From: Labrys sp. WJW
GTDB taxonomy: Bacteria; Pseudomonadota; Alphaproteobacteria; Rhizobiales; Labraceae
Reading direction: 5' to 3'
DNA length: 64,000 nt
Assembly: GCF_001676615.1 (NCBI RefSeq)
Contig: NZ_LYXZ01000018.1
Span: forward strand, 1 to 64,000
In this document: positions 3,944 to 22,088 of the stretch, piece after piece
How the letters are laid out: the number at the start of each line of letters is the position of its first letter
Numbering within the stretch: position 1 is the stretch's first letter
The notes under the pieces: generated by a model
What the model was told of the DNA's origin: nothing
Seen by the model: the letters and a program-made list of their open reading frames with translations, nothing else
Database searches by the model: none
Program-made: the position numbers and the translations under genes

Positions 3944-3978
3944 GATGAAGATCGCGTTGCGGTTGATGCGCAGGAAAC

Positions 3979-4047
3979 GCCGCGGCTGGGACCGCGGACG
4001 TCAACGACATGCTTGCATGTCGTGATGTCCGCGGTCCCAGCCGCGGC
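3979..4047. repeat. Nested perfect inverted repeat between ATPase and binding-protein genes
   Basis: A 21-bp perfect outer stem (3979-3999 with 4027-4047) encloses a second perfect 9-bp stem (4004-4012 with 4015-4023, core ACGACATGC/GCATGTCGT). The inner part matches the palindromes at 24965-25060 and 37513-37613, so it belongs to the same dispersed family. In the minus-strand transcript it lies downstream of the binding-protein gene and upstream of the ATPase, where it could shield the 3' end of the binding-protein message and so raise its level relative to the membrane components. That role is inference. Confidence 0.75.
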
Positions 4048-4065
4048 GCCTCTTGTGGATAGGCC

Positions 4066-5272: not shown

Positions 5273-6568
5273 TTACCCCGCCGCCTTGGGCGCATAGCTC
5301 GCCGGATCGAGGCTGGCGGGTCGACCGGGCAGGTCGAGCGTGCTGCGCCGGGCCGGTGTCTGCGCAATCACCTTGCCACGGCGCACGACGGCGAGGCGGG
5401 TAGGGCGCATGCGCACGGCCTCGATCGTATCGGCCGCCTGCAGGATGACGAAATCGGCGTGGCAGCCCTTGGCAAGGCCATAGTCTTCCAGCCCCATCAC
5501 GGCGGCCGGCACCGAGGTCACCGCTTCGAAGGCCCAGCGTATCGCCTCGCGGCTGGTCATCGGCACGGCATGCACGGCCATATGCGCGACATCCAGCATG
5601 TCGGCGCCACCGAGCCCGTACCAGGGATCCATCACGCAATCCTGGCCGAGCGCCACGGGAATGCCGAGCGCGCGCATCTCGGGGATGCGCATCAGGCCGC
5701 GACGCTTGGGATAGCTGTCGTGGCGGCCCTGCAGGGTGATGTTGATCAGCGGATTGGCGATCGCGAAGATGCCCGCCTCCAGGATCAGCGGCAGCAGCTT
5801 GGAGACATAATAGGAATCCATCGAGTGCATGGAGGTGAGATGCGAGCCGGCCGCCCGCCGGCCCAGGCCGAGGCGATGGGCCTCCGCCGCCAGCGTCTCG
5901 ATATGGCGCGAATGGGGATCGTCGCTCTCGTCGCAATGCAAATCGATCATCAGGCCGCGCTTGGCGGCGATGGCGCACAGCGCTTTCACCGAGGCGGTGC
6001 CGTCTTCCATCGTGCGTTCGAAATGGGGAATGCCGCCGACCACGTCGACACCCATGTCGAGCGCCCGCTCGAGATTCCCGGCGGCGGTGGGCGAACGGTA
6101 ATAGCCGTCCTGCGGGAAGGCGACGAGTTGCAGGTCGAGATAGGGTTTCACCCGGGCCTTGACCTCGAGCAGGGCTTCCACCGCGAGCAGGCGGTCGTCG
6201 CAGATGTCGACATGGCTGCGCACGGCCAGCAGACCCTGGCTGACGGCGAGGTCGCAATAGCGCAGCGCCCGTTCGATCACCGCCTCATGGGTCAGCATGG
6301 GCTTGAGCTCGCCCCACAGCGCAATCCCTTCCAAAAGCGTGCCCGACTGGTTGAGCCTGGGAAGGCCCAGCGACAGCGTGGCGTCCATGTGGAAGTGGCA
6401 GTCGACGAAGGGCGGCGCCACCAGATGTCCGCCGGCATCGATGCGCTGGGCGGCCTCGGCCGCAATGCCCGGCTCGATGGCGGTGATGCGTCCGCCCGTT
6501 ACAGCGATGTCCTGGCCGGTGCGTCCGTCGGGCAGGGTGGCGTTGGTGACGATGAGGTCGAGCGACAT
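5273..6568 (-). CDS. codA: Cytosine deaminase-type amidohydrolase
   Basis: A 431-residue metal-dependent amidohydrolase. It shows the HxH metal site in VDCHFHMDATLS, a second His region in LHCDESDD, SHLTSMHSM, and the active-site Asp block LGQDCVMDPWYGLGGADMLD, which is the hallmark of cytosine deaminase/isoguanine deaminase-type CodA proteins. It would hydrolytically deaminate a pyrimidine or oxidised/modified purine base in the cytosol. It sits between two BMP-type importers and reads into the first, suggesting that an imported nucleobase is its substrate. CodA relatives act on cytosine, isoguanine, 5-methylcytosine and creatinine, so the exact substrate is open. Confidence 0.85.
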   Translation of the reverse strand: MSLDLIVTNATLPDGRTGQDIAVTGGRITAIEPGIAAEAAQRIDAGGHLVAPPFVDCHFHMDATLSLGLPRLNQSGTLLEGIALWGELKPMLTHEAVIERALRYCDLAVSQGLLAVRSHVDICDDRLLAVEALLEVKARVKPYLDLQLVAFPQDGYYRSPTAAGNLERALDMGVDVVGGIPHFERTMEDGTASVKALCAIAAKRGLMIDLHCDESDDPHSRHIETLAAEAHRLGLGRRAAGSHLTSMHSMDSYYVSKLLPLILEAGIFAIANPLINITLQGRHDSYPKRRGLMRIPEMRALGIPVALGQDCVMDPWYGLGGADMLDVAHMAVHAVPMTSREAIRWAFEAVTSVPAAVMGLEDYGLAKGCHADFVILQAADTIEAVRMRPTRLAVVRRGKVIAQTPARRSTLDLPGRPASLDPASYAPKAAG

Positions 6569-7761: not shown

Positions 7762-8846
7762 CAGGCATGCTCCCGCACGGGGCTGAACCGGTAGAAGATG
7801 AAGAAATCCGCAGCGAGCAGGAAGAACAGCAGGATGCCCTGGAAGATGCGGGTGAGGGAGGAGGACAGGCCGATGGTGAGCTGCACGCTTTCGCCGCCGA
7901 GGAAGAGCAGCGACATCAACAACCCGCCGAGCACGATGCCGAAGGCGTTGAGCCGGCCGATGAAGGCGACGATGATCGCAGCAAAGCCGTAGCCGGGCGA
8001 GATCTGTGGAGATAGTTGCCCGAGCGGTCCGGACAGTTCGGCCATGCCGGAAATGCCCGCGGCCGCGCCGCCGGCGAGCAGGCCCGTCCACACCGCCGCG
8101 GATTCGCGGAAGCCGGCATAGCGGGCGGCAAGCGGGGCCGCGCCGCTGACCGACATCTTGTAGCCAAGGAAGCTGCGGTCCGTGAACAGCCACATCGCCA
8201 CCACACCGATCACGGTGAGGATCACAGAGGTGTTGAGGCGATAGGCATCGTCGAAGACGGGAAACATCGCGGCCGGGGGCAGCAGCGCCGTCTGCGGATA
8301 GTTGAAACCGGCGGGATCGCGCCAGGGGCCATGCACCAGCCAGGACAGCAGCAGGCCGGCGATATAGGTGAGCATCAACGTGACCAGGATCTCGTTGGTG
8401 TTCATCCGCGCCCTGAGGAAGGCGGGAATTGCGGCCCAGGCCATGCCCGCCAGCGCGCCCGCCAGGATCATCAGCGGCAGCAGCAGCCGGCTTTCCGGAT
8501 CGGGATAGAACAGGCCGACGCCGCAGGCGGCGATCGCCCCGATGATCAATTGGCCCTCCGCGCCGATGTTCCAGACATTGGCGCGGAAGCCGACGGCGAG
8601 GCCGCAGGCGATCAGGATCAAGGGTGAGGCTTTCAGCAGCCATTCCGAGACGCCGTTCATCGAGTTCAGCGGCGCGATGAAGAAGGCCTGCAGGGTCTGG
8701 AGCGGATCCTGGCCCAGCGCTGCGAACAGAATGGAGCCGACCAGCAAAGTGAGCAGGACCGCGACCACGGGCGCGGCGAGGCGCATGGCGGCGGATGGTT
8801 CGGGTCTTTGTTCGATCTTAAAGCGCAACGGAACTGCTCCCACCAT
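7761..8846 (-). CDS. BMP-type nucleoside/purine ABC importer, permease 1 (second system)
   Basis: A permease of about 361 residues with the NupP-type block LAVGFRANVWNIGAEGQLII. The start is ambiguous: ATG 8846, an upstream GTG at 8861 and a TTG at 8828 preceded by GGGAG are all in frame, and all overlap the end of the ATPase gene, so the genes are translationally coupled. The family usually begins just before the RxExRPEPS segment seen here, which favours a start close to 8846-8828. It forms the channel with the following permease. Confidence 0.9.
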   Translation of the reverse strand: MVGAVPLRFKIEQRPEPSAAMRLAAPVVAVLLTLLVGSILFAALGQDPLQTLQAFFIAPLNSMNGVSEWLLKASPLILIACGLAVGFRANVWNIGAEGQLIIGAIAACGVGLFYPDPESRLLLPLMILAGALAGMAWAAIPAFLRARMNTNEILVTLMLTYIAGLLLSWLVHGPWRDPAGFNYPQTALLPPAAMFPVFDDAYRLNTSVILTVIGVVAMWLFTDRSFLGYKMSVSGAAPLAARYAGFRESAAVWTGLLAGGAAAGISGMAELSGPLGQLSPQISPGYGFAAIIVAFIGRLNAFGIVLGGLLMSLLFLGGESVQLTIGLSSSLTRIFQGILLFFLLAADFFIFYRFSPVREHA

Positions 8847-10350
8847 TCTGGCCCTGGCCACCGATCCTGGTCATGAGCAGGCCGACCTCCTCGCGATTGG
8901 TTTGGCTCCGGACGAGGGGAGGCGAGACGCGCCCCTGGCAGATCACCAGCAGCCGGTCGCAGATCTCGAAGAGCTCGTCGAGTTCCTCGGAAATCACCAG
9001 CACGGCCGCGCCCGCACGGCTGAGATCGATCAGCGTCTGGTGGATGAAGGCGGCCGCGCCGACATCGACCCCCCAGGTCGGCTGGGAAACCAGGAACAGG
9101 TTCGGCGCCAGCGCGATTTCCCGCCCCACGATGAATTTCTGCAGATTGCCGCCGGAAAGGCTGCGCGCGCTGGCGCGCGGGCCGTTCGCCTTCACCTTGA
9201 ATGTCTCGATGACGCTGCCGGCAAAGCCCATCGCCCGCTTGCGGTCGACCAGGCCATGGCGCACTAGGTCCTTGCCATGGGCCGTGAGCACGGCGTTCTC
9301 CCACAGCGCATGCGGCGGCACGGCGCCACGGCCGAGTCTCTCCTCCGGCACGAAGGCGAAACCGCGCCGGCGCCTGGCGGCGGCATCGAACCGACCGACG
9401 GCCTGTCCGCCGAAACGGATGGCCTCATGATCGGCGACAGCCCGCTCGCCGCTGAGGGCGGCGATCAGCTCGGCCTGGCCATTGCCCGAGACGCCGGCGA
9501 GGCCGACGATCTCGCCACCATGCACCTCGAAGCCGACATCGTGCAGGGCGACACTCCCCTTGTCGGATGGCACCGACAGGCCGCGTACCTGGAGGACCGG
9601 CCCGGCGCTGCGTGTCGAGGGCGTGACCTTCATTTCCGGCAGGGTCGAGCCGACCATCAGACGGGCCAGTTCCACCGATGTGCTCTGCTTGGGCTTGGCG
9701 GTGCCGGTCACCCGGCCATTGCGCAGTACGGTGGCGGAGTCGCAAAGCGCCTGCACTTCGTCGAGCTTGTGGCTGATATAGAGGATGCTGCAGCCTTCGG
9801 CGGCGAGCTGGCGCAGCGTCTCGAACAGTTTCACCACCGCCTGCGGCGTGAGCACCGAGGTCGGCTCGTCCAGGATCAGGATCTTGGGCGTGCGCAGCAG
9901 GCAGCGCACGATTTCGACGCGCTGGCGTTCGCCGACGGAGAGGTCGTGGACCCGCCGCCGGGGATCGATCGGCATGCCGTAGCGTTCCGACAGCGCCGTG
10001 ATCTGTCCGGCCAGTTCTTCCAGCCGGAAAGGGCCGGGGGCGCTGAGGGCGATGTTCTCGACGACGGTGACGGACTCGAACAGGGCGAAATGCTGGTAGA
10101 CCATCTCGATGCCGAGGGCGCGCGAACTGGCCGGGTCATGCGCATCGATCGGCCTGCCGTCGCAAAGGATCTCGCCGGAATCGGCCCGGGCCGCGCCATA
10201 GATGATCTTCATCAGCGTCGATTTGCCGGCGCCGTTCTCCCCCAGCACCGCATGGATTTCCCCGGGCATGATCGAGAGCGAGATGCCGTCATTGGCAACG
10301 ACGCCGGGATAGCTCTTGGTGATGTTGCGCAGTTCGAGGCGCGGGGGCAT
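8818..10350 (-). CDS. BMP-type nucleoside/purine ABC importer, duplicated ATPase (second system)
   Basis: A 510-residue ATPase with two nucleotide-binding domains. The first has GENGAGKSTLMK and LILDEPTSVL with signature LSVGERQRVEI; the second has GLAGVSGNGQAEL, SLSGGNLQK and SQPTWGVDVGA, i.e. a degenerate second site as in the paralogue at 2438-3943. Start 10350 is chosen because it follows AGGA with 6-bp spacing and begins exactly at the first domain; the frame extends upstream to 10401 without a ribosome site. Energises the second importer. Confidence 0.92.
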   Translation of the reverse strand: MPPRLELRNITKSYPGVVANDGISLSIMPGEIHAVLGENGAGKSTLMKIIYGAARADSGEILCDGRPIDAHDPASSRALGIEMVYQHFALFESVTVVENIALSAPGPFRLEELAGQITALSERYGMPIDPRRRVHDLSVGERQRVEIVRCLLRTPKILILDEPTSVLTPQAVVKLFETLRQLAAEGCSILYISHKLDEVQALCDSATVLRNGRVTGTAKPKQSTSVELARLMVGSTLPEMKVTPSTRSAGPVLQVRGLSVPSDKGSVALHDVGFEVHGGEIVGLAGVSGNGQAELIAALSGERAVADHEAIRFGGQAVGRFDAAARRRRGFAFVPEERLGRGAVPPHALWENAVLTAHGKDLVRHGLVDRKRAMGFAGSVIETFKVKANGPRASARSLSGGNLQKFIVGREIALAPNLFLVSQPTWGVDVGAAAFIHQTLIDLSRAGAAVLVISEELDELFEICDRLLVICQGRVSPPLVRSQTNREEVGLLMTRIGGQGQNGGSSSVAL

Positions 10351-10443: not shown

Positions 10444-11538
10444 TCAGCCGAGCTTGCCGATCATGCCCTTGACGAACCAGTTCATGCCGCGGATGTCGGC
10501 ATCCGTGGCCACCGCGCCGGCCGCGACCTTGACGGTGCCTGCCTGGTCCTTGAGTTCGCCCGCATAGGGGTGGACCTTGCCCGAGCCGATGTCGGCCTCC
10601 AGTTGCTTGAGCTTGGTGACCACGTCCGAAGGGATGGCTTCGTTGTAAGGCGCCATCTTGACCACGCCGCCGGCGAGGCCATCCCAGCGTGCCTCTGGCT
10701 TCCAATTGCCATCGGCCACGCCTTTTGCCGCGCGCACATAGTCGCTCGACCAGTCTATCGTGAAGGCGGTGAGCTGCTTGCCGGCGCCGAACTTCGACAT
10801 GTCGCTGGCATAGCCGATCGACCAGGCGCCGCCTTCGCCGGCGACCTGCACGCCGGTCGCGGTATCGGTCATCGAGCAGATCACGTCGCAGCCTTGCGAC
10901 AGCAGGGTCTTGGCGGCCTCCTTCTCCTTGCCGGGGTCGAACCAGGAATTGAGGAAGATCGCGTTGCAGGTGATCTCCGGCTTCACGCTCTGGGCGCCGA
11001 GCAGCAGCGCATTGGCGGGGCCGACGATATCGGGGATCGGGAAGCCGCCGATGAAGCCGATCTTGCCGGATTTGCTCATATAGGCTCCGGCGGCGCCGGC
11101 GACGAAGGTGCCCTCGTAATATTTGGCTTCGAAGGTGCCGAGATTGGCCAGGTGCACGATGCCGGAGCAATGCTCGAAGGCGATCTTGGGGAAGCGCGGC
11201 GCCACCTTCTGCAGCGGCGTGCCATGCGAGAAGCTGGTGCCGAAGATCAGCTTGTTGCCGGACGAAGCAAGCTCGCGGAAGACGCGTTCGGCGTCCTGCG
11301 GCATGAAGATGTTGTCGATGACGGTGATCGCGACCTTGTCGCCGAATTCCTTCTTGATCGCTTCGACGCCGAGGCTGTGCTGCTTGGTCCAGCCGATATC
11401 GGCGATGGGCGAAACGTAGACGACGCCGATCTTGAGCGGCTCATCCGCATAGGCGCGGCTCGCGAAGCTCCCGGCTCCCAGGGCAGCGCCGGCCATGCCG
11501 GAATATTGCAGGAATTTGCGCCTCGTCAGGTCGATCAT
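10444..11538 (-). CDS. BMP/PnrA-family binding protein (second system)
   Basis: A 364-residue binding protein. The N-terminal TRRKFLQYSGMAGAALGAG is a twin-arginine signal, followed by IGVVYVSPIADIGWTKQH, typical of the PnrA/BMP family. It is the first gene of the second importer operon and lies just downstream of the GntR regulator, in the same direction. It shares family and layout with the first system but is clearly different in sequence, so the two importers probably have distinct substrate preferences. Which purines or nucleosides are bound cannot be told from sequence alone. Confidence 0.9.
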   Translation of the reverse strand: MIDLTRRKFLQYSGMAGAALGAGSFASRAYADEPLKIGVVYVSPIADIGWTKQHSLGVEAIKKEFGDKVAITVIDNIFMPQDAERVFRELASSGNKLIFGTSFSHGTPLQKVAPRFPKIAFEHCSGIVHLANLGTFEAKYYEGTFVAGAAGAYMSKSGKIGFIGGFPIPDIVGPANALLLGAQSVKPEITCNAIFLNSWFDPGKEKEAAKTLLSQGCDVICSMTDTATGVQVAGEGGAWSIGYASDMSKFGAGKQLTAFTIDWSSDYVRAAKGVADGNWKPEARWDGLAGGVVKMAPYNEAIPSDVVTKLKQLEADIGSGKVHPYAGELKDQAGTVKVAAGAVATDADIRGMNWFVKGMIGKLG

Positions 11539-11600: not shown

Positions 11601-12371
11601 CTATTTCGAAGTGTGGCTATGGCGATGCTTTGCCGCCTCACCATTGCTTTTCTGGGCGGTTTCTCGACGGGTCCGCAAAGTTTCGCTGGCTTCCGGCTCC
11701 AGATAAGGCTCAAGGGCTTCGCGGGGCGACAGTTCCGGGAAGACCTGCCTATCCATGATATAGCCGCGCACCACGCTGCGATGATGGGTGTCGATCAGCT
11801 CCATCGCCTGTTTGAGGCGCCCCTTCTCGAGCAGGTCGATCACCCGCGAATGATCGTCGATCAGGTTGCAATAGTCGAAATCGGCGGTGACCAGCGAGCG
11901 CAGCAGCGTGGTCCGGCGGACGAGCTGGGCATGGATGTCCTGCATCACCTTGTTGCGGCTCAAACGGACGAAGATCGTGTGGAATTCCTGGCCGAGGACA
12001 TCGGCCAGGGCATCGTTGCCGGCGGCGATGGCCTGGCGCTGGCGTTCGACATGCTGGCGCAATTCGGCCCAGCCGGCCGGACCGAGCCTGTCGCTGAGCT
12101 GCGCCGCCACGCCCTGTTCGACCAAGGTCAGCGCGTCGTAGATCTCCAGCGCTTCCTGCATGCCGGGGCGGGCGACGAAGGCGCCGCGATTGCGCTCGAT
12201 CTGGGCGAGGCCGTCATCGGCGAGCCGGATCAAGGCCTGGCGCACCACGATGCGGCTGACGTCGAAGATCTCGGCGAGCTCCCGTTCGCCGAGCTTGCAG
12301 CCCGGCACCAGCCGGTGCTCGATGATGGCCCGGGTCAGGATGTCGGCTATTGCCTGCGAGCGGCTGCTCAT
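11601..12371 (-). CDS. GntR/FadR-family transcriptional regulator
   Basis: A 256-residue regulator with an N-terminal winged helix (GCKLGERELAEIFDVSRIVV, then RQALIRLADDGL) and a C-terminal FCD-type helical domain containing spaced metal-binding-type residues (FHTIFVRL, DDHSRVIDLLEKG, HHRSVV). Start 12371 is preceded by GGGAGG with good spacing; a longer frame to 12398 exists. It is divergent from the Rieske-less oxygenase operon and upstream of the second importer, so it is the natural candidate to control both in response to a purine-derived ligand. Target and ligand are inference. Confidence 0.9.
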   Translation of the reverse strand: MSSRSQAIADILTRAIIEHRLVPGCKLGERELAEIFDVSRIVVRQALIRLADDGLAQIERNRGAFVARPGMQEALEIYDALTLVEQGVAAQLSDRLGPAGWAELRQHVERQRQAIAAGNDALADVLGQEFHTIFVRLSRNKVMQDIHAQLVRRTTLLRSLVTADFDYCNLIDDHSRVIDLLEKGRLKQAMELIDTHHRSVVRGYIMDRQVFPELSPREALEPYLEPEASETLRTRRETAQKSNGEAAKHRHSHTSK

Positions 12372-12566
12372 GCCCAATACCTCCCGCGCCGGCAGCACGG
12401 CATGTCCGAACTGCCTGCACCATATCGGTATTCAATCCTCTCTCCCTGTCAATCAAGAATCATTCTTTGTCGTGCAATTTTTAATTGATTGATATCCAAT
12501 CCTGTGGTTCCAATGCCCGTAACGGAGCTAGGTTCATGGGGAAGAGCTAGCCGAGGGGAGGGTGCG
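12372..12566. promoter_or_regulatory. Divergent promoter region between gntR-type gene and oxygenase operon
   Basis: 195 bp, AT-rich relative to the flanks. It contains the inverted repeat GATTG-ATATC-CAATC at 12487-12501, which is a plausible operator for the divergent GntR regulator. The plus-strand operon's first gene has a strong ribosome site (GAGGGGAGGG) just before 12567. Promoter boxes are not clear enough to call. Confidence 0.5.
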
Positions 12567-13433
12567 ATGAGCCAAGCAACCCTTTGTAGCGACCAAGTTC
12601 TTCTGAACGACTGGCATGTGATTGCCGACCTGGCGAACCTGATACCCGGCAAGCCCTTCCAAACCCGCCTGCTCGGCGTGGCGCTGGATATTCGCAGGGA
12701 CGACAGCGCCGATTGGCGGGTTGTCCGTCAGGGCGATGGGCGCGCTGTTGTCTCGACCAGCCGCTACGGTTTTCTGTGGGCCTGCCTGGGCGTGGCGGAG
12801 CGCGACATCCCCCTCGTGCCCGAAGCCGTGGAGGAGGATCGCTATCTGGTGACCGGTGGCTCGATCGCCGTCCGTGCCTCCGGGTTGCGGGCCGTCGAGA
12901 ATTTCCTCGACCTGGGCCATCTTCCCTTCGTGCATTCGGGCACCCTGGGAGAGGAACCTCATACCGAAGTAGCGCCCTATAACGTGCGGGTGACCGAGGC
13001 CGACGAGATCCTGGCGACCGAATGCAAGTTCTTCCAGCCCTTTGCCTCGCCCTCGGCGGAAGGAGGCTTCTTGGTCGACTATGTCTACAAGGTGATCCGG
13101 CCCTATACGGTGGCGCTCTACAAGAGCAATTCCGTGCACAAGGAGCGCTCCGACGTGATCGTGCTGTTCGTCCAGCCGGTGGACGAGGAGAATTGCGTGG
13201 CCCACCCCCTGCTTTGCTATGTGAAGGACGGTACAGGCGAGGCTGCCATCCGCGGTTTCATGCAGTTGATCTTCGCCCAGGACAAGCCGATCCTGGAGAA
13301 CCAGCTGCCCAAGCGCCTGCCGCTCGATCCGCGCGCCGAGACGCCGATCCGGGCCGACGCCGTCTCCGTCCATTACCGGCGCTGGCTCAGGGACCATGCG
13401 GTCTCCTACGGCGCCATACCGGCGCGGCTTTGA
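12567..13433 (+). CDS. Rieske-less non-heme iron oxygenase subunit (NdmC-like), first copy
   Basis: A 288-residue protein of the VanA/NdmA Rieske oxygenase family with the Rieske cluster loops missing. The N-terminus keeps the start of the Rieske fold (LLNDWHVIADLANLIPGKPF) but jumps straight to the segment that normally follows it (YGFLWACLG); no CxH or CxxH cluster motif is present. The catalytic domain is intact: NFLDLGHLPFVH gives His118 and His123, and FAQDKPILENQ gives Asp239, a 2-His-1-carboxylate iron site. This is the architecture of NdmC, the caffeine-pathway N7-demethylase subunit. It needs an external Rieske donor, which the third gene supplies. Start 12567 follows GAGGGGAGGG. I infer oxidative N-demethylation of a methylated nucleobase; the substrate is unknown. 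Confidence 0.85.
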   Translation: MSQATLCSDQVLLNDWHVIADLANLIPGKPFQTRLLGVALDIRRDDSADWRVVRQGDGRAVVSTSRYGFLWACLGVAERDIPLVPEAVEEDRYLVTGGSIAVRASGLRAVENFLDLGHLPFVHSGTLGEEPHTEVAPYNVRVTEADEILATECKFFQPFASPSAEGGFLVDYVYKVIRPYTVALYKSNSVHKERSDVIVLFVQPVDEENCVAHPLLCYVKDGTGEAAIRGFMQLIFAQDKPILENQLPKRLPLDPRAETPIRADAVSVHYRRWLRDHAVSYGAIPARL

Positions 13434-13463
13434 AGTCTGCGCCGACGCAAATCAAGAGGAACA

Positions 13464-14372
13464 ATGATGATCGAGACACGCTGCAAGGATCCGGTGACTC
13501 TCAATCTCTGGCATCCGCTCGCGGCCATGGCCGAGACGGCCGCCGGCAAGGTCGCCGAGACGGTGCTGCTGGAGGAAAGGCTTGGCTATGCGATCGATGA
13601 GCGCGGCAATGCGGCCGTCTGGTTGAAGCGACCGGGGCTTGCCGCGAGCGATCCGGTCGATGTCGAAGCCCTGGGAGACACACTGCCGGTCAAGCTAGCC
13701 TATGGCTATGTCTGGACCTCGCTCGGCACGCCGCCTGCGGAGCTCTTCCCCATTCCGGAATTCGCCGAACCCGATCGCCGCCGCTTGAATGCCGCCAGTA
13801 TCGGCGTGAATGTCTCGGCGCCGCGTGCCATCGAGAACTTCCTCGACATGGGCCATTTTCCCTATGTTCACACCGACATCCTCGGCGCCGAGCCGCATAC
13901 CGAGGTGAAGGAATATGACGTCGAGATCTCTGTTGACCGCGACGAGATCCTGGCGACGCGCTGCCGCTTCTTTCAGCCCATGGCCTCGACTGTCTCCACC
14001 GGGGGGGCCGATGTCGACTATGTCTACCGCGTTCCCCATCCCTTCTGCTCGGTGCTCTACAAATCGAGCCCGGCCGACGAGAGCCGGCGCGACGTCATCG
14101 CCGTCTTCCTGCAGCCGGTCGACCAGGAGCATGTCCGCGCCCACATGATGCTGTGCGTCCTCGACGAGGAGAACGAGGACAAGGTGATCAAGCGCTTCCA
14201 GCAGACCATTTTCGGGCAGGACAAGCCGATCCTCGAAAACCAGTTCCCCAAGCGTCTGCCACTCGATCCCAGGGCCGAGACGCCGATCCGCGCCGACAAG
14301 TCGGCGATCGCCTATCGCCGCTGGCTCAGCCAGAAGGGTGTGACCTATGGCGTCATCCCGGCCGCGACCTGA
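13464..14372 (+). CDS. Rieske-less non-heme iron oxygenase subunit (NdmC-like), second copy
   Basis: A 302-residue paralogue of the preceding protein, also lacking Rieske CxH/CxxH motifs while keeping the iron site: NFLDMGHFPYVH (His131, His136) and FGQDKPILENQ (Asp253). The two copies are almost identical in the C-terminal block LPLDPRAETPIRAD and diverge in the substrate-facing middle, suggesting a heteromeric enzyme or two substrate specificities sharing one reductase. The gene starts 30 bp after the first, behind AGAGGAACA; the first codons are ATGATG, so the start could be 13467. Function inferred from the NdmC family and operon. Confidence 0.85.
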   Translation: MMIETRCKDPVTLNLWHPLAAMAETAAGKVAETVLLEERLGYAIDERGNAAVWLKRPGLAASDPVDVEALGDTLPVKLAYGYVWTSLGTPPAELFPIPEFAEPDRRRLNAASIGVNVSAPRAIENFLDMGHFPYVHTDILGAEPHTEVKEYDVEISVDRDEILATRCRFFQPMASTVSTGGADVDYVYRVPHPFCSVLYKSSPADESRRDVIAVFLQPVDQEHVRAHMMLCVLDEENEDKVIKRFQQTIFGQDKPILENQFPKRLPLDPRAETPIRADKSAIAYRRWLSQKGVTYGVIPAAT

Positions 14373-14398
14373 CAAAGACCCGATTTTCGGAGACCACT

Positions 14399-16165
14399 AT
14401 GCTCGAGACCGCCAAGACCCGCTGGCATCCCATTGCCGCGTCGCATGACCTGCCGTTCCGCCATGTCTTCCATGGCCAGTTGCTCGGCCGCGAATTCGCC
14501 GTCTGGCGCGCCGATGACGGCTACGTCAACATCTGGGAGAACCGCTGCCTGCATCGTGGCGTGCGCCTGTCGATCGGCATCAATGATGGGCGCGAGCTCA
14601 AATGCCAATACCATGGCTGGCGCTATTCCAACCGCACCGCGGGCTGCACCTATATCCCGGCCCATCCGGCCGATGCCCCGGCGCGCACCATCACCAACCG
14701 GACCTTCGCCTCGGTGGAGCGCTACGGCCTGATCTGGTCGGCCGAGGAGCCGATCGGCGAGGTGCCGGAGATAACGGGTCTTTCGGAAGGCAATCTCCTG
14801 GCCCTGCGCGGCATCCCGGTGAATGCGCCGCCCGAATTGGTGGCGGAGGGGCTGAAAGCCTATCGTTTCCAGCCAAGCGATGCCTTGGCGGGCTCGTCTG
14901 CCGAGGCGGTGGTCGAGGCTGCCAACGGCTTGAGCGTCGCGCTGCGCTCGAAGGAAGGCGAGCACTCGACCCTGGCGGTCTTCTTCGTGCAGCCGGTCGA
15001 TTCCAACCGCTCCGTCATCCGCGGCGTGCTCGACGTCATTCCTGAAGGCGCCGCCCGGCCGGCGGTGCTGCGCCATCACAACGAGCTCCTGTCGAAATTG
15101 CGTGACAGGCTGGAACGCGAGGCGGCTGACCGGCCGACGCCCGCGCTCCTGGAGGCAGTGATCGAGCGGGTCTCGCCCGAGCTTGCCGAAATGCCTGAAC
15201 TCACCGCGCATGGCCGCAAGGCCACTATTCGCGTCGAGGTGGCGCGCAAATGGCCGGCGGCCGACGGCATTGCCGGGTTCGAACTGCGCCCGGTGAAAGG
15301 CCTGCTGCCGACCTTCCAGCCCGGCGCCCATATCGACGTGCATCTGCCCAATGGCCTGATCCGCCAATATTCGATCACCAACGGTCCGGGCGAGGCCGAC
15401 CGCTATGTCATCGGCGTCAAGCTGGAGCGCGACTCCAAGGGGGGCTCGTCCTGCCTGCACGAGACGGTGCGCGAAGGAGACGTGCTGGCGATCTCCGATC
15501 CGCGCAACAATTTCCCCCTGCGCCGGGATGCCTCGAAGACCCTCTTCATCGCTGGCGGCATCGGCGTGACCCCGATGCTGGCCATGGCCCAGGCGCTGCA
15601 TCACCAGGGGCTGGCGCATGAGTTTCACTATTTCGCGCAGAACGAGGGCCAGCTTGCCTTCCGCGATAGGCTGGATCTTCTGAAGGCGACGCTGGTGCCG
15701 CATCTCGGGCTCGGCCCGGAAGCGACGGCGGCGAAGCTGCGCGAAATTCTTGGTTCCTATGACGGCGACACGCATCTCTATCTCTGCGGCCCCGGGCCGA
15801 TGCTGGAGGCGACGCGGGCCATCGCCGCCGAGCTCGGCTGGCCGGAAGAGGCAGTGCATTTCGAGTATTTCAAGAACACCAAGGAGATCGACGACTCGTC
15901 CAGCTTCGAGATCGCCCTGGCGCGCTCGAACATGACGCTGACAGTGCCGGCAGGCCGCACCATCCTGGAAGTCATGCGCGAGGCCGGCATCGACATGCCT
16001 TCGTCCTGCGAGCAGGGGGCCTGCGGTACCTGCCTGTGCTCGGTCATCGAGGGTGAACCCGATCACCAGGACGTCTATCTCACCGAAGCCGAGAAGAAAT
16101 CGGGCACCAAGATCATGACCTGCGTGTCGCGTGCCAAATCCGCCCGCCTCATTCTCGATCTCTAG
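14399..16165 (+). CDS. Fused Rieske ferredoxin-flavin reductase-plant ferredoxin (NdmD-like)
   Basis: A 588-residue electron-transfer protein. Order of parts: a Rieske [2Fe-2S] domain (Cys50/His52 in NRCLHRGV and Cys69/His72 in KCQYHGW); a middle segment (about 115-245) resembling an oxygenase C-terminal domain (VFFVQPVDSNRS) but without the iron ligands; a flavin domain (RQYSITNGPG near 322); an NAD(P)-binding domain (AGGIGVTPM near 385, YLCGPGPML); and a plant-type [2Fe-2S] domain with Cys537, Cys542, Cys545 and Cys575. An extra N-terminal Rieske on a vanillate-demethylase-type reductase is the defining feature of NdmD. Here it supplies the cluster missing from both upstream oxygenase subunits. 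Start 14399 follows GGAG; 27 bp from the previous stop. Confidence 0.9.
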   Translation: MLETAKTRWHPIAASHDLPFRHVFHGQLLGREFAVWRADDGYVNIWENRCLHRGVRLSIGINDGRELKCQYHGWRYSNRTAGCTYIPAHPADAPARTITNRTFASVERYGLIWSAEEPIGEVPEITGLSEGNLLALRGIPVNAPPELVAEGLKAYRFQPSDALAGSSAEAVVEAANGLSVALRSKEGEHSTLAVFFVQPVDSNRSVIRGVLDVIPEGAARPAVLRHHNELLSKLRDRLEREAADRPTPALLEAVIERVSPELAEMPELTAHGRKATIRVEVARKWPAADGIAGFELRPVKGLLPTFQPGAHIDVHLPNGLIRQYSITNGPGEADRYVIGVKLERDSKGGSSCLHETVREGDVLAISDPRNNFPLRRDASKTLFIAGGIGVTPMLAMAQALHHQGLAHEFHYFAQNEGQLAFRDRLDLLKATLVPHLGLGPEATAAKLREILGSYDGDTHLYLCGPGPMLEATRAIAAELGWPEEAVHFEYFKNTKEIDDSSSFEIALARSNMTLTVPAGRTILEVMREAGIDMPSSCEQGACGTCLCSVIEGEPDHQDVYLTEAEKKSGTKIMTCVSRAKSARLILDL

Positions 16166-16186
16166 CGCAACGATAATTTTTGTAGC

Positions 16187-16266
16187 CGTCATTGCGAGCG
16201 TAGCGAAGCAATCCAGTCTCTCGAGTGCGGCTAAGCCTGGATTGCTTCGCTCCGCTCGCAATGACG
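16187..16266. repeat. Palindromic intergenic repeat (GTCATTGCGAGCG type)
   Basis: Near-perfect inverted repeat: CGTCATTGCGAGCGTAGCG at the left is mirrored by CGCTCCGCTCGCAATGACG at the right, with AAGCAATCCAG/CTGGATTGCTT inside. It occupies the gap between the reductase gene and the GST-like gene, inside the probable operon, and may act as an RNA stem between cistrons. Confidence 0.75.
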
Positions 16267-16303
16267 AAACACCACTCTTCCTGCAAGACTGCAATTCTGG
16301 GAT

Positions 16304-16957
16304 ATGACCGTGATCAAGCTCTACGACTACGAACTCTCCGGCAATTGCTACAAGCTGCGCCTGCTGATGGGCATTCTCGGCATGGCCTATGAAACCGTGC
16401 CGGTCGATTTCTATCCCGGCCGCGAGCACAAGTCTGACTGGTTCCTCAGGATCAATCCGCTCGGCCAGTTGCCGGTGATCGAGGATGACGGGCTGGTGCT
16501 GCGCGATGCCCAGGCCATCCTCGTCTATCTCGCCGCCAAATATGATGCCGGGGGTGGCTGGTATCCGCAGGGCAATCCCGCTTTGCTCGGTGAGATCAGC
16601 CAATGGCTGGCCTTCGCCGACGGCATCACCGCCACGGCCTCGGCGGCGCGGCTGCATGACGGCCTGTTCTACGAACTCGACGTCGAGGCGGCGCGATCGG
16701 GCGCCCATCGCCTGTTCCGTATCCTCGACGAGCATCTGTGGTTCGGCGAGCAGGAAAAGCGCGACTGGCTCTGCAGCGCGCCCCAGCCGACCATCGCCGA
16801 CATTGCTTGTTTTCCCTATGTGATGTTGTCGGAGGAGGGTGGCATTCCCCGCCAGGACTATCCGGCGATCCGCCGCTGGTCCGACAGGGTCAAGCGTATC
16901 AAGGGCTTTTCGGTGATGTCTGGCGTCTTCCCCGCTGGCCCGGCGAAAGCGGCGTGA
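16304..16957 (+). CDS. Glutathione S-transferase-like protein (NdmE-like)
   Basis: A 217-residue GST-fold protein: thioredoxin-like N-domain (IKLYDYELSGNCYKLRLLMG, INPLGQLPVIEDDG, LRDAQAILVYLA) and a helical C-domain. In the caffeine N7-demethylase complex a GST-like protein, NdmE, is required as a structural partner of NdmC and NdmD; the position of this gene directly after an NdmD-like gene argues for the same role. A conventional glutathione transferase cannot be excluded. It is the last gene of the operon and its stop codon lies in a strong terminator hairpin. Start ATG 16304 has only a weak ribosome site. Confidence 0.8.
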   Translation: MTVIKLYDYELSGNCYKLRLLMGILGMAYETVPVDFYPGREHKSDWFLRINPLGQLPVIEDDGLVLRDAQAILVYLAAKYDAGGGWYPQGNPALLGEISQWLAFADGITATASAARLHDGLFYELDVEAARSGAHRLFRILDEHLWFGEQEKRDWLCSAPQPTIADIACFPYVMLSEEGGIPRQDYPAIRRWSDRVKRIKGFSVMSGVFPAGPAKAA

Positions 16958-16981: not shown

Positions 16982-18772
16982 TCAGCCCGCCACCAGCACC
17001 GAGGTCTCGGCGAAGCGGGTGACGTCGATCAGGCCCTTGTCGGAGATGCGCAGCTCCGGGATGACCACCAGCGCCAGCAGCGAATGCTGCATATAGGCGT
17101 TGTTGAGCGTGCAGCCGCATTCGCGCATCGCCTCGACCAGCCGGCTCGCCTTCCCGGCCACGATCTCGGCCCGCTCGTCAGACATCAGGCCGGCCACCGG
17201 CAATTCGACCAGGGCGAGCTCCCGACCCTCGCTGATCATCACGATGCCGCCGCCGACCTCACCCAGCCGGTTGGCGGCCAGCGCCATGTCGCGCTTGTTG
17301 GTGCCCACCACGATCATGTGGTGGCTGTCATGCGCCACGGTCGAGGCCATGGCGCAATCCTTGGTATAGCCGAAGCCGGACACGAAGGCGTTGACCACCT
17401 CGCCGGTGGCGCGGTGGCGCTCGACCAGGGCGATCTGGCAGACATCGTTGGCCCTGTCCATGCCGACGATGCCGTCCTCGACCGGCAGCTTCCTTTCCAG
17501 CGCCTTGGTGGGGGCCTGGTTCTCGACCACGCCGATCACCCGGGCCGTGATCTCGGAGGCGCCGGGTGCGGCGATGTCGAAATCCGGGGCCTCCAGGCGC
17601 TTGCCGAGCCGCACCGTGTTGCAGGCACTGTCCGGATAGGCATAACGGGGGATTTCCGCCGTCAGAGCGCCATGCTCGGCCAGCAATTCGCCGCGGGCGA
17701 ACACCATCTCGACCGGCAGCGCCGCGAGGTCCGAACTGATGATCAGGTCGGCGCGGCGGCCCGGCGCGATCGAGCCGAGCTCCCGTTCCAGGCCGAAATG
17801 CTGCGCGGTGTTGAGCGTCGCCATCTGGATGGCGGTGACAGGCTTCAGGCCCTGGGCGATGGCATGGCGCACCACCCGGTTCATGTGGCCGTCATTGACC
17901 AGCGTGCCGGAATGGCTGTCGTCGGTGCACAGGATGAAGTTGCGCGGATCGAGGCCGCATTCGGTGATGGCCTTGACCTGGGCGGCGACGTCGTACCAGG
18001 CCGAGCCGAGGCGCAGCATGGCGCGCATGCCCTGGCGCACGCGGGCGATGGCGTCGTCCAGCGTGGTGCCCTCGTGATCATCCGCCGGGCCGCCGGCCGC
18101 ATAGGCGTGGAAGGCGCGGCCGAGATCGGGGGAGGCGTAGTGGCCGCCGACGGTGAGACGGGCCGCCTGGGTGGCAGCGATCTCCGCCAGCATCTTGGCA
18201 TCGTTCGAGGCGACGCCCGGGAAGTTCATCATCTCGCCGAGCCCGATGATATTGGGCCAGGACAGGGCCTGCCTGACATCTTCCGCGCTGAGTTCGGCGC
18301 CGGCGCGTTCCAGCCCTGGTGCGCTCGGCACGCAGCTCGGCACCTGCACCAGGATGTTGATCGGCAGGCTTTGCGCCTCGTCGTTCATCAGCTTGACGCC
18401 GGGCAGGCCGAGCACATTGGCGATCTCGTGCGGATCGATGAACATGGTTGTGGTGCCATGCGGGATGACGGCGCGCGCGAACTCGGTCACCGTGACCAGG
18501 CCGCTTTCGACATGCATGTGGCCGTCGCACAGGCCCGGCACGAGATAGCGGCCGGCGGCGTCGACGACCCTGGTCTCCGGGCCGATGGCGTGGCCGGCAT
18601 CGGGGCCGACATAGGCAAAGCGCCCGGCCGAAACGGCGATGTCGGTTCCCGGCACGATCTCGCCGGAATAGACGTTCACCCAGCGCCCGTTGCGGATGAC
18701 CAGATCGGCCGGCGTGCGGCCCATGGCGACGTCGACAAGCCGGGGCGCGATTTCAGACCAGGGCTTCAGCAT
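16982..18772 (-). CDS. ade: Adenine deaminase (canonical type)
   Basis: A 596-residue amidohydrolase of the AdeC family converting adenine to hypoxanthine and ammonia. The metal/active-site blocks are canonical: CDGHMHVESG, HGTTTMFIDPHEIANVLG, GLGEMMNFPGV, CTDDSHSGTLVNDGHM, and the C-terminal AdeC domain with STVAHDSHHMIVVG. Start 18772 is preceded by AAAGGA with 9-bp spacing; a TTG at 18790 is also in frame. It lies 66 bp downstream of the NCS2 permease gene on the same strand, consistent with uptake and deamination of adenine in one unit. Confidence 0.92.
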   Translation of the reverse strand: MLKPWSEIAPRLVDVAMGRTPADLVIRNGRWVNVYSGEIVPGTDIAVSAGRFAYVGPDAGHAIGPETRVVDAAGRYLVPGLCDGHMHVESGLVTVTEFARAVIPHGTTTMFIDPHEIANVLGLPGVKLMNDEAQSLPINILVQVPSCVPSAPGLERAGAELSAEDVRQALSWPNIIGLGEMMNFPGVASNDAKMLAEIAATQAARLTVGGHYASPDLGRAFHAYAAGGPADDHEGTTLDDAIARVRQGMRAMLRLGSAWYDVAAQVKAITECGLDPRNFILCTDDSHSGTLVNDGHMNRVVRHAIAQGLKPVTAIQMATLNTAQHFGLERELGSIAPGRRADLIISSDLAALPVEMVFARGELLAEHGALTAEIPRYAYPDSACNTVRLGKRLEAPDFDIAAPGASEITARVIGVVENQAPTKALERKLPVEDGIVGMDRANDVCQIALVERHRATGEVVNAFVSGFGYTKDCAMASTVAHDSHHMIVVGTNKRDMALAANRLGEVGGGIVMISEGRELALVELPVAGLMSDERAEIVAGKASRLVEAMRECGCTLNNAYMQHSLLALVVIPELRISDKGLIDVTRFAETSVLVAG

Positions 18773-18838: not shown

Positions 18839-20242
18839 TCAGGCCTGCACCTGCAAGACCAGCATGGCCGCGAGCACCGCCACGAACCACATCACCGGCC
18901 TCACTTCGCCTGGCTTGCCGGCGAGAAGCTTGAGCAGCACATAGGCGATGACCGCGAGCGACAGACCGAGCGTGATCGAGAAGGTGAGGGGAATCAGCAC
19001 GATGGCGAGGAAGGCCGGGATGGCGTCCTCCATGCTCGACCAACGGATGCGGCCCATCGGCTCGGACATGAACAGGCCGGTGAGGATCAGCACCGGCGCC
19101 GTGGCGATGGCCGGGACCAGGGAAAGCAGCGGCGACAGGAACAGGAAGGGCAGGAAGAGCAGGCCCGAGACCAGCGCGACCAGGCCGGTGCGGCCGCCCT
19201 GGGCGATGCCGGCGCCCGATTCCAGATAGACCGTGGCCGGGCTGGTGCCGAGCGGCGCCGAGATCAACGCGGCGACGGCGTCGACATGCATCGACTGCTT
19301 GACGTTGCGCGGCATGCCGTTCTCGTCCTTGAGGTCGGCAGCTTCGGCCAGGCCGAGGAAGGTCGACAGCGCCTCGACGAAATTCGTGAACAGGAACACG
19401 AAGATGAAGGGCGCATAGGCAAATTGCAGGGCGCCGAGCAGATCGATCTTGCCGACGAAGCTGAAATCGGGGGCGGCGGTCAGCCCGCTCCAGTTGACCA
19501 GCGTGTGCAGGTCGGGCGTGCCGGCATTGAAGGCGGCGCCATCGCCCCACCAGCGCCCGATCGGGATGGCGAGAAGGGTGGTGGTGATCATGCCGAGCAT
19601 CATGGCGCCGGGCAGCCGGCGCACCACCAGCGCGACCGTGACGATGAAGCCGGCGATGAAGGTGAGCGTCACGGGCGAGAAATGCGTGAGCCCGACGATG
19701 GTATCGGCATTGGAGACGATGAACTTGGCGTTGACCAGGCCGATCAGCGCGATGAACAGGCCGATGCCGCAGGCAATGCCATAGCGAAGGTCTGTCGGTA
19801 TCGCCTCGATCACCGCCGTGCGCAGGTCGAGGAGCGCCATGATGGTGAAGAGCACGCCTGCCCAGAGGACGCAGCCGAGCGCGATCTCCAGCGGCACCTT
19901 GGCGCCGAGCACCATCGTATAGGTGAAGAGGGCGTTGATGCCCATGCCGGGCGCCACCAGGATCGGGCTGCGGGCATAGAGCCCCATGGCGCAGCTGCCG
20001 ATGAAGCTGACCAGCACGGTGGCGGTGACGCCGGCCGAGAACGGGATGCCGGCCGGCAGCAGGATCGCGGGATTGACGACGATGACATAGGATGCCGCCA
20101 GGAAGGTCGTCAGCCCGGCCAGGATCTCGGTGCGAACCGTCGATCCGAAGTGCGATATCTGGAAGTAGCGGTCGAGTGCGGCGGCGAGCCAGGATTGGCC
20201 CTCGCCCGTTCCCCTTGCCTCGACATCGGTTTGATAGCCCAT
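18839..20242 (-). CDS. NCS2-family purine base permease (AzgA/GhxP-like)
   Basis: A 467-residue inner-membrane proton symporter of the AzgA-like NCS2 subgroup (adenine, guanine, hypoxanthine). Diagnostic pieces are EILAGLTTFLAASYVIVVNP near the N-terminus, APGMGINALFTYT, and ESGAGIAQGGRTGL in the middle, all hallmarks of the AdeP/GhxP/PbuG group. It lies between the two adenine-deaminase-family genes, all on the minus strand with short gaps (49 and 66 bp), so the three are probably co-transcribed from the promoter upstream of 22088. Confidence 0.92.
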   Translation of the reverse strand: MGYQTDVEARGTGEGQSWLAAALDRYFQISHFGSTVRTEILAGLTTFLAASYVIVVNPAILLPAGIPFSAGVTATVLVSFIGSCAMGLYARSPILVAPGMGINALFTYTMVLGAKVPLEIALGCVLWAGVLFTIMALLDLRTAVIEAIPTDLRYGIACGIGLFIALIGLVNAKFIVSNADTIVGLTHFSPVTLTFIAGFIVTVALVVRRLPGAMMLGMITTTLLAIPIGRWWGDGAAFNAGTPDLHTLVNWSGLTAAPDFSFVGKIDLLGALQFAYAPFIFVFLFTNFVEALSTFLGLAEAADLKDENGMPRNVKQSMHVDAVAALISAPLGTSPATVYLESGAGIAQGGRTGLVALVSGLLFLPFLFLSPLLSLVPAIATAPVLILTGLFMSEPMGRIRWSSMEDAIPAFLAIVLIPLTFSITLGLSLAVIAYVLLKLLAGKPGEVRPVMWFVAVLAAMLVLQVQA

Positions 20243-20291: not shown

Positions 20292-22088
20292 CTATGCCGC
20301 TGCCCCGATGTCGTTACCCGCTGCTTGGATCAGTGGCGAGATCACCTTCAAATTCACGCAGTCGACCACGCCCAGATCGGTGATCGCATAATCGGGAATC
20401 GCGGTGATCTGCAGCACGAACATGTACATGAACGGCCAGGGCAGGTCGCAGCCGAGGCTCCGTACCGCGTCGTCGAGCCGCAGTTCCTTCTCGGCCATCG
20501 CCGCGGGGTCGATATCGGCGACGATGCCGCCGACCGGCAGATGGAGGAATTCGAGCACCTTGCCGTCGCGCACCACCACCTGGCCGCCCTGGTTGGCGAT
20601 GAGATGGTTGATGGCAACGGCCATGTCCTCGACATTGGTGCCGATGCAGATGATGTTGTTGTCATCGGGCGCGGTAGAACTGGCCATGGCGCCCGCCTTC
20701 AGGCCGAAGCCGGAGGTGAAGGCGACGGGGCGGTTGCGCGTCTTGCCGTAGCGCTCGACCACGGTGATGTACTGCACGTTCTGGCCGATATCCGCCTGGA
20801 TGCGGCCCTCCTTCACTGGCAGCGACACGTCGCGCCGCGTGCGCACGAAGATCTTCTCGGGCGTCACCGCGATCGCCAGGACGTCGGCGCTGTCGCCGGA
20901 GCCGCTGAAGGGCACCGCAATCTCCTCGGGTTTGATCGGCTCGAGCTTGATCGAGTGCAGCAGAGCCTCGCTGCGCGGCGGCGGCGCGAGCTCCACGGCC
21001 ATGCTGCCGTCGCGCGCCGCCAGGGCGCCCTTGGCGATCACCGCCTCGATCTTGAAGTCGCGCAGGTCGTTGACCAGCAGGATGTCGGCTGCCCGGCCCG
21101 GCGAGAGCGAGCCGACCTTGTCGTCGATCCTCAGGGCATCGGCCCCGTTGATCGTCGCCATCTGGATCGCCGCCATCGGGGAGATACCCATGGCGATCGC
21201 CATGCGCACCATGTTGTCGAGATGGCCGCGCGCCAGGATGTCGCTGGCGACGACGTCGTCGGTGCAGAAGCTGATGCGGCGCAGCGCCTTCACGCCCATT
21301 TCGGTGACGATGCGCAGATTGTCGGACAGGAAGTGCGAGATCGAGGATTCGCGCACCACCACATGCATGCCGGCGCGCAGTTTCTCCAGCATCTCCTCGG
21401 GCGTGTAGCTCTCATGGTCGGCGCGTACGCGGGCCTGCTGGTAGGCGTCGAGCCGGGCGCCGCGCGTCATCGGGCAGCAGCCGAGCAAGGGCAGGCGGCT
21501 GGCCTCGGCGATCTCGATCGCCTTGAGCACGTCGGCATCCTCTTCCTGGATGAACTCGCGCACCGTCTCCCAGATGCCGACGCATTCCGGCCAGTGATGG
21601 GTGGCGAGGTGATCCTGCGGGCCGAAATAATGGCCGACGGTGGAGCGGGGCATGGTGTAGGGCGTCTTGCAGGGTGCGCCCCAGAACACTTTCAGCGGTG
21701 TCTGTCGTGCCTCGTCGAGGAATTCGCGGGCCGCGGCCGGGCCGCCCACCACGATGATCTGGTCGAGGCCCGTGACGATCGAGGTGGTGCCGAGCGGCAC
21801 CACGGCCTTCGCGAAGCTGGTGATCGAGAGCTTGGAGCATTCGACATGCAGATGGCCGTCGATCATGCCCGGGCAGAGATATTTGCCGCTGGCATCGATG
21901 ATCTCGGTCTCCGGTCCGACATGGTCGGCGATGTCGCCGACGGCGATGATGCGGTCGCCGAGAATGGCGATGTCGGCCTGGTAGATCTCCTCCGACACCA
22001 CATTGACCAGCCGGCCGCCGCGAACCGCCAGGCTCGCCTTGGCACCGTGCCCCGACGCGGCGCGAATGAACTCCCGTATATCCGTCAC
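20292..22088 (-). CDS. Divergent adenine-deaminase-family amidohydrolase
   Basis: A 598-residue AdeC-family protein that differs at key places from the canonical copy at 16982. It keeps MIDGHLHVECSK, FCTDDVVASDILARGHLDNM and the C-terminal domain (STAPDDNNIICIGT), but the DPHEIANVLG block is replaced by GLDQIIVVGG and the GEMMNFPGV block by a VREFIQEEDAD segment. Substrate may thus be a modified adenine or another aminopurine; N6-methyladenine deaminases are known in this family. Start is a GTG at 22088 with CAGGGAGG 6 bp upstream; the open frame reaches 22130 through a non-coding-looking stretch. First gene of the deaminase-permease-deaminase unit. Confidence 0.85.
   Translation of the reverse strand: MTDIREFIRAASGHGAKASLAVRGGRLVNVVSEEIYQADIAILGDRIIAVGDIADHVGPETEIIDASGKYLCPGMIDGHLHVECSKLSITSFAKAVVPLGTTSIVTGLDQIIVVGGPAAAREFLDEARQTPLKVFWGAPCKTPYTMPRSTVGHYFGPQDHLATHHWPECVGIWETVREFIQEEDADVLKAIEIAEASRLPLLGCCPMTRGARLDAYQQARVRADHESYTPEEMLEKLRAGMHVVVRESSISHFLSDNLRIVTEMGVKALRRISFCTDDVVASDILARGHLDNMVRMAIAMGISPMAAIQMATINGADALRIDDKVGSLSPGRAADILLVNDLRDFKIEAVIAKGALAARDGSMAVELAPPPRSEALLHSIKLEPIKPEEIAVPFSGSGDSADVLAIAVTPEKIFVRTRRDVSLPVKEGRIQADIGQNVQYITVVERYGKTRNRPVAFTSGFGLKAGAMASSTAPDDNNIICIGTNVEDMAVAINHLIANQGGQVVVRDGKVLEFLHLPVGGIVADIDPAAMAEKELRLDDAVRSLGCDLPWPFMYMFVLQITAIPDYAITDLGVVDCVNLKVISPLIQAAGNDIGAAA

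Follow-up and report, generated by a model that had tools for sequence, protein, structure and literature searches.

A probable split Rieske N-demethylase of Labrys with two Rieske-less catalytic subunits and a putative vestigial alpha subunit fused to its reductase

Introduction

Among the closest known systems to the operon reported here is NdmCDE, the 7-methylxanthine N7-demethylase of Pseudomonas putida CBB5 and of caffeine-type clusters, which combines a Rieske-less catalytic subunit that holds the mononuclear iron, a reductase with an extra N-terminal Rieske domain and a GST-like third protein encoded alongside. By itself, NdmC is insoluble. The published NdmCDE complex has the composition C3D3E3 and acts on 7-methylxanthine (PMC10380055). 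NdmA and NdmB, N1- and N3-demethylases that carry their own Rieske cluster, assemble into an alpha3-alpha'3 heterohexamer, and as few as two active-site changes in NdmA switch its regioselectivity from N1 to N3. In solved Rieske oxygenases, electrons pass from the Rieske cluster of one subunit to the iron of its neighbour, ~12 Å away. SxtT and GxtA are single-chain alpha3 hydroxylases of saxitoxin biosynthesis. Finally, homologues of ndmCDE in Sinorhizobium and Mesorhizobium were reported earlier with no function assigned (PMC4408171).

Here we analyse a 64,000-nucleotide stretch of the genome of the soil bacterium Labrys sp. WJW (hereafter the window), for which a preliminary description, made from the sequence alone, had proposed an NdmC-D-E-like operon in a probable alphaproteobacterium. 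The host is indeed an alphaproteobacterium (Labrys, Hyphomicrobiales) and the layout does occur beyond Pseudomonas, but the layout itself is not new, since the Sinorhizobium and Mesorhizobium homologues had already been reported.

Results

Organisation of the operon

The four forward-strand genes that the preliminary description had assigned to positions 12567-16957 are all present there, as seen from the reading frames and their Pfam domains:

12567..13433, + strand: subunit A (P0001), NdmC-like catalytic subunit, 288 aa; iron domain, Rieske cluster absent
13464..14372, + strand: subunit B (P0002), NdmC-like catalytic subunit, 301 aa from the second ATG at 13467
14399..16165, + strand: NdmD-like protein (D), 588 aa; Rieske domain, putative vestige and reductase module
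16304..16957, + strand: GST-like NdmE homologue (E), 217 aa; Pfam GST_N/GST_C

The gene for B starts with tandem ATGs at 13464 and 13467. As had been proposed, the third gene encodes a reductase with an additional N-terminal Rieske domain (Pfam Rieske, NAD_binding_1 and Fer2 are all matched). An 80-bp REP-like palindrome (window 16187-16266; 33-nt arms, 94% complementary) lies between the genes for D and E, and has relatives at ~40 places in the genome (80 matches, most places being matched on both strands).

As a reference for the caffeine-type cluster we used a P. putida plasmid whose NdmA is 92% identical to the solved CBB5 protein, making it a close relative and not CBB5 itself. Its cluster consists of fghA, a GST gene (taken as ndmE), ndmD, ndmC, a TIM-barrel gene, an NCS2 permease, a second oxygenase (taken as ndmB), ndmA and frmA, the last encoding a class III alcohol dehydrogenase. 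Identities to this CBB5 relative are 43% for A, 47% for B, 36% for D and 64% for E, which bears out both the NdmC-D-E likeness and the GST-like nature of the fourth protein. Shared with caffeine NdmCDE are the three types of component and, in many relatives of the Labrys operon, linked frmA/frmB genes. The Labrys operon differs in having two catalytic paralogues that both lie outside the caffeine NdmC clade, in its linkage to a PnrA-like ABC transporter and in having no NdmA or NdmB beside it. The last point had been made before and holds: no other Rieske gene is near, and the sole further match on the contig is 257 kb away.

Subunits A and B retain the iron site and lack the Rieske cluster

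Both catalytic subunits possess the 2-His-1-carboxylate site proposed for them, made up of H118, H123 and D239 with D115 as bridging residue in A, and of D127/H130/H135/D252 in B (numbered from the ATG at 13467); the residue numbers first given for B were each one too high because they had been counted from the earlier of the tandem ATGs, at 13464. The D-H-H-D site is intact in 128 of 129 relatives, the lone exception being a MAG with a His-to-Arg replacement, and is kept complete in the A and B clades alike. In Pfam searches A matches VanA_C only and B matches VanA_C and KshA_C only, with no Rieske model matched by either, and the C-x-H...C-x2-H motif is absent from all 160 NdmC-like proteins treated as Rieske-less (out of 168 NdmC-like matches collected), the window pair included. 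A hidden Rieske motif in A or B, which the preliminary description had named as one finding that would speak against it, is thereby ruled out.

The predicted structure of A (pLDDT 91.5) aligns with SxtT (Z 33.8, rmsd 1.9, chain range 1-334), the alignment taking in 275 of the 288 residues of A, and with NdmA at Z 26.4. This near-full alignment is consistent with an alpha subunit that has lost the cluster-binding loops and little else. SxtT and GxtA are the best match to the catalytic subunits by structure and by sequence, although their Rieske and iron sites are both complete. By sequence, NdmA and NdmB come next, having the catalytic-domain fold and iron site in common with A and B at ~23% identity in structural alignment. 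With SxtT/GxtA as the nearest solved sequences, a purine substrate is not proven from sequence similarity alone. In a classical alpha subunit, Rieske cluster and iron site reside in one chain; here they are split between D and A/B.

The NdmD-like protein models as a Rieske domain with a vestigial alpha subunit

Residues 1-249 of D comprise the Rieske domain and what models as an iron-less vestige of a catalytic domain, and residues ~271-588 a phthalate-dioxygenase-reductase-type module with flavin, NAD and plant-type [2Fe-2S] parts. The Rieske ligands (C50/H52/C69/H72) are invariant in 62 relatives. In the predicted structure (pLDDT 88.5), residues 1-248 align to GxtA residues 4-291, with SxtT giving a similar result (Z 21.7, rmsd 3.1-3.4, 235-240 residues aligned), so that most of an alpha subunit is covered; SxtT/GxtA are also the best Rieske-oxygenase match for this half of D. 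At the profile level, residues ~159-231 match the NdmC profile with an E-value of 3e-6 and a score of 44.6, compared with at most 20.5 in 60 column-shuffled controls. A first hhalign comparison over the full span of the vestige had been weak (probability 38, P 5.6e-5), the run with shuffled controls being clearer. No conserved histidine pair of the H-x4-H type is left in the segment of D that follows the Rieske domain. The corresponding segment also aligns in NdmD of the caffeine-type cluster, and stand-alone Rieske proteins match the D vestige in profile comparison (E 2.6e-10) and NdmC directly only weakly (E 0.01).

Model and profile both show the vestigial fold, and the N-terminal half of D models as a Rieske-oxygenase alpha subunit whose catalytic domain has lost its iron site. 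Taken together with the alignment of A to SxtT, these alignments suggest that D and A/B complement each other as two halves of a single ancestral alpha subunit. We found no earlier description of a vestigial alpha domain in NdmD in the open-access papers searched.

A and B as ancient paralogues with a different residue at the switch position

In a tree of 61 proteins, separate clades are formed by A (99/100), caffeine NdmC (100/99), the Rhizobium type with a stand-alone Rieske protein (96/87) and, weakly, B (70/73), and neither Labrys subunit falls within the clade of NdmC from caffeine clusters. A 129-protein tree agrees on the A clade. Given these separate clades, A and B are, on phylogenetic grounds, ancient paralogues and neither is orthologous to caffeine NdmC. 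Thus, the earlier assignment of two NdmC-like subunits stands as regards likeness (43% and 47%) but not as regards membership, both being sister clades to caffeine NdmC.

Conservation differs between A and B at nine positions. At one of these, the position of NdmA N282, A has Met232 and B has Gln245, a difference that extends across the clades (Met in 22 of 23 A proteins, Gln in 93% of B). Caffeine NdmC has Gln here, the same as B, and therefore differs from Labrys A. N282 and F286 are altered in the published NdmA QL mutant, whose sequence was compared with that of NdmA. Although it concerns one position, Met in A versus Gln in B favours different specificities over redundancy. A decaying pseudo-subunit, as another explanation for A, is ruled out because its iron site and its clade are conserved.

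Distribution among relatives

We compared 79 named loci, in which the A-B-D-E order plus a PnrA-like ABC transporter was found in at least 10 genera and MAG lineages, the neighbour counts here and below hinging on the length of DNA per locus and on a home-made gene caller. A divergent GntR gene and the PnrA-like transporter accompany A-B-D-E in Labrys, Aminobacter, Mesorhizobium, Nitratireductor, S. meliloti 1021, Primorskyibacter and a Rhodospirillales MAG, and the transporter is arranged in another way in Ensifer, Pararhizobium and Methylopila. For A+B loci with at least 13 kb of DNA, D and E are present in 20 out of 20 and a transporter permease in 18 out of 20; the constant presence of D and E argues that the layout is not due to chance. 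At the S. meliloti 1021 locus on pSymA (L033), A-B-D-E is complete and comes with the same GntR regulator and transporter as in Labrys, at identities of 78% (A), 83% (B), 78% (D) and 87% (GST). A search by presumed locus tags gave nothing usable in terms of functional data on these S. meliloti genes.

Every A adjoins a B in the named loci. A candidate for A without B (L125), which lies near GuaD, is 55% identical to P0001 and has Ala at the switch position, proved to be no clear member of the A clade. B-D-E without A, on the other hand, is found in Devosia, several Sinorhizobium strains (unlike Labrys), Nocardioides, Pseudonocardia, Acidimicrobiia and Granulosicoccus. With B so frequently found without A, A is not needed for a B-D-E system, and the notion that it is always required is ruled out.

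Purine and formaldehyde genes around the operon

On either side of the Labrys operon, the window contains the following features:

5273..6568, − strand: cytosine-deaminase-family amidohydrolase (PRK07572 subfamily, 771 bits)
6841-7761 and 7761-8786, − strand: two ABC permeases of the PnrA/BMP-type system
8818..10350, − strand: ABC transporter ATP-binding protein of the PnrA/BMP-type system
10444..11538, − strand: PnrA/BMP-type ABC substrate-binding protein with Tat signal, a conserved neighbour in relatives
11601..12371, − strand: divergent GntR-family (FCD) regulator
12487..12502, no strand assigned: conserved motif GATTGATATCCAATCC in the divergent GntR/NdmC intergenic region, proposed operator
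16982..18772, − strand: adenine deaminase (TIGR01178, 508 bits, above cut-off)
18839..20242, − strand: NCS2-type nucleobase permease (Xan_ur_permease)
20292..22088, − strand: second adenine-deaminase-family protein (TIGR01178, 368 bits, under cut-off)

A motif around TTGATATCCAA is present in all 18 loci of the divergent GntR/NdmC arrangement, the window included (at most 2 mismatches; loci counted regardless of kinship), and no further operator-like copies occur in the window; we propose GATTGATATCCAATCC as a candidate operator. A second PnrA-like ABC transporter (window 442-5100; substrate-binding protein, ATPase and two permeases) adjoins the cytosine-deaminase-family gene. The adenine deaminase is also linked to the operon in Labrys sp. 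KNU-23, and L. okinawensis lacks the adenine deaminase/permease block at this place. Elsewhere in the Labrys genome there are one xanthine dehydrogenase large subunit above cut-off, away from the operon, and a single frmA above cut-off, on another contig and not in the operon.

In relatives, frmA follows the GST gene in the A-B-D-E operons of Aminobacter and Primorskyibacter (592 and 599 bits, cut-off 544), as does frmB in that of Primorskyibacter (422 bits, cut-off 282). Caffeine clusters carry frmA/frmB too, and frmA is found in 8 of 20 A+B loci, some of which are incomplete. GuaD, XdhABC and a permease adjoin the C-D-E genes of Nocardioides, and several other relatives have a guanine or 8-oxoguanine deaminase above cut-off either next to the locus or no more than a few kb away. 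Overall, 22 of the 64 loci, representing more than one phylum, have a gene for GuaD, 8-oxoguanine, adenosine or adenine deaminase, XDH, CodA or NCS2 as a neighbour, and no recognised purine gene is present within ~10 kb at 18 of the 64, mostly from Devosia. The frmA/frmB genes of relatives, like an adjoining guanine deaminase, xanthine dehydrogenase or purine permease, argue for demethylation of N-methylpurines. BMP-type ABC transporters carry other ligands as well, which counts against a purine reading. A purine setting of the operon is supported, with an ABC transporter, deaminases and a permease flanking it and formaldehyde-detoxification genes in its relatives. No paper dealing jointly with 7-methylguanine, a demethylase and a Rieske protein was found in the open-access papers searched.

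Proposed function and alternatives

We consider it likely, with a probability of roughly 0.7, that the product of the operon is a split Rieske oxygenase demethylating imported N-methylpurines, with A and B sharing D and E; judged from gene content, the function with the best support is N-demethylation of purine bases. We infer the N-demethylation, the purine substrate, the electron path and the division of labour between A and B as follows. Imported purine bases would lose their N-methyl groups by oxidation, and formaldehyde would be formed as a by-product. Electrons from NADH would travel via the flavin and plant-type [2Fe-2S] centre of D to the N-terminal Rieske cluster of the same protein and then cross a subunit interface to reach the mononuclear iron in A or B, with the NdmE-like GST keeping the complex together. 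D would have retained the cluster and a dead catalytic domain, while A and B would still have the iron site, their Rieske domain being devoid of cluster loops. By analogy with NdmA, NdmB and NdmC, which share NdmD, the most likely arrangement is that A and B differ in the base or the N-methyl position they act on, with D and E in common.

That A and B together constitute one obligate heteromeric oxygenase, forming a mixed ring with D and acting on a single substrate, seems somewhat unlikely. The NdmA/NdmB heterohexamer is a precedent for such an arrangement, and the constant adjacency of A to B would fit it, but the B-D-E loci of Devosia, several Sinorhizobium strains, Actinomycetota and Granulosicoccus indicate that B has no need of A, and the iron sites are complete in both copies, as two separate enzymes would require. 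The identical gene set, the strong NdmE similarity (64%) and the Gln shared by B and caffeine NdmC could also be explained by a plain 7-methylxanthine N7-demethylase with the same function as caffeine NdmCDE. We regard this as unlikely, given that the well-supported A clade and B both stand apart from caffeine NdmC, that A has Met at the switch position, that NdmA and NdmB are not nearby and that guanine and adenine deaminases, not caffeine genes, are found beside relatives. A non-purine substrate, i.e. some other small heterocycle or alkaloid that is imported by the ABC transporter and then demethylated or hydroxylated, is in our view quite improbable. It would agree with hydroxylases (SxtT/GxtA), not demethylases, being the nearest solved sequences and with the many loci where purine genes are missing, and the adjoining cytosine-deaminase-family gene could suggest pyrimidines; however, the purine-gene neighbours span more than one phylum, and frmA/frmB point to a methyl group leaving as formaldehyde.

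What is new here are the A/B paralogue branch, the differing switch residue, D as a putative vestigial alpha subunit and the links to purine and formaldehyde genes. The data suggest that the split arose when duplicated alpha subunits lost complementary functions. More tentatively, and at slightly less than even odds, the family may represent a widespread catabolic route for methylated nucleobases that depends on a split oxygenase of complementary, half-dead alpha subunits. If so, two iron-bearing paralogues of differing specificity would be served by one cluster-bearing, iron-less alpha subunit fused to its own reductase, and the bases degraded would include methylguanines and methyladenines released as RNA or DNA is turned over. 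On the present data, the family appears to belong to purine catabolism not just in caffeine degraders but in Alphaproteobacteria, Gammaproteobacteria and Actinomycetota, and what becomes of methylated nucleobases in soil and marine bacteria can thereby be tested directly.

Variant loci

The Rieske protein has a gene of its own in Rhizobium and Komagataeibacter. The variant operon of Rhizobium and Qingshengfaniella (L037:12947-16865, L039:11213-14736, L042:10954-14860) contains a stand-alone Rieske protein with a segment resembling the D vestige, an NdmC-like protein, a GST, an 8-oxoguanine-deaminase-like amidohydrolase and a PnrA-like ABC transporter, with no reductase gene seen within it. A small gene annotated as acylphosphatase lies upstream in R. 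leguminosarum and Qingshengfaniella. A kombucha-derived Komagataeibacter plasmid (L124:17161-23712) has two split-oxygenase sets and a separate PDR/VanB reductase, with an NdmA-like gene nearby; of its two Rieske proteins, the one at 21300-21833 is missing a cluster cysteine, with GVYH in place of CxxH. In the Acidimicrobiia clusters (L101:4615-11183, L107:7928-10849), NdmC-like subunits are mixed with complete Rieske oxygenases, and adenosine-deaminase-family genes are located in or near these clusters. Finally, a third NdmC-like clade with His at the switch position is found in Ensifer and Pararhizobium (L055:655-3870, L056:3018-3959), near genes for a serine hydroxymethyltransferase and a hydroxyacid dehydrogenase. 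Such neighbours may hint that the one-carbon unit takes another route.
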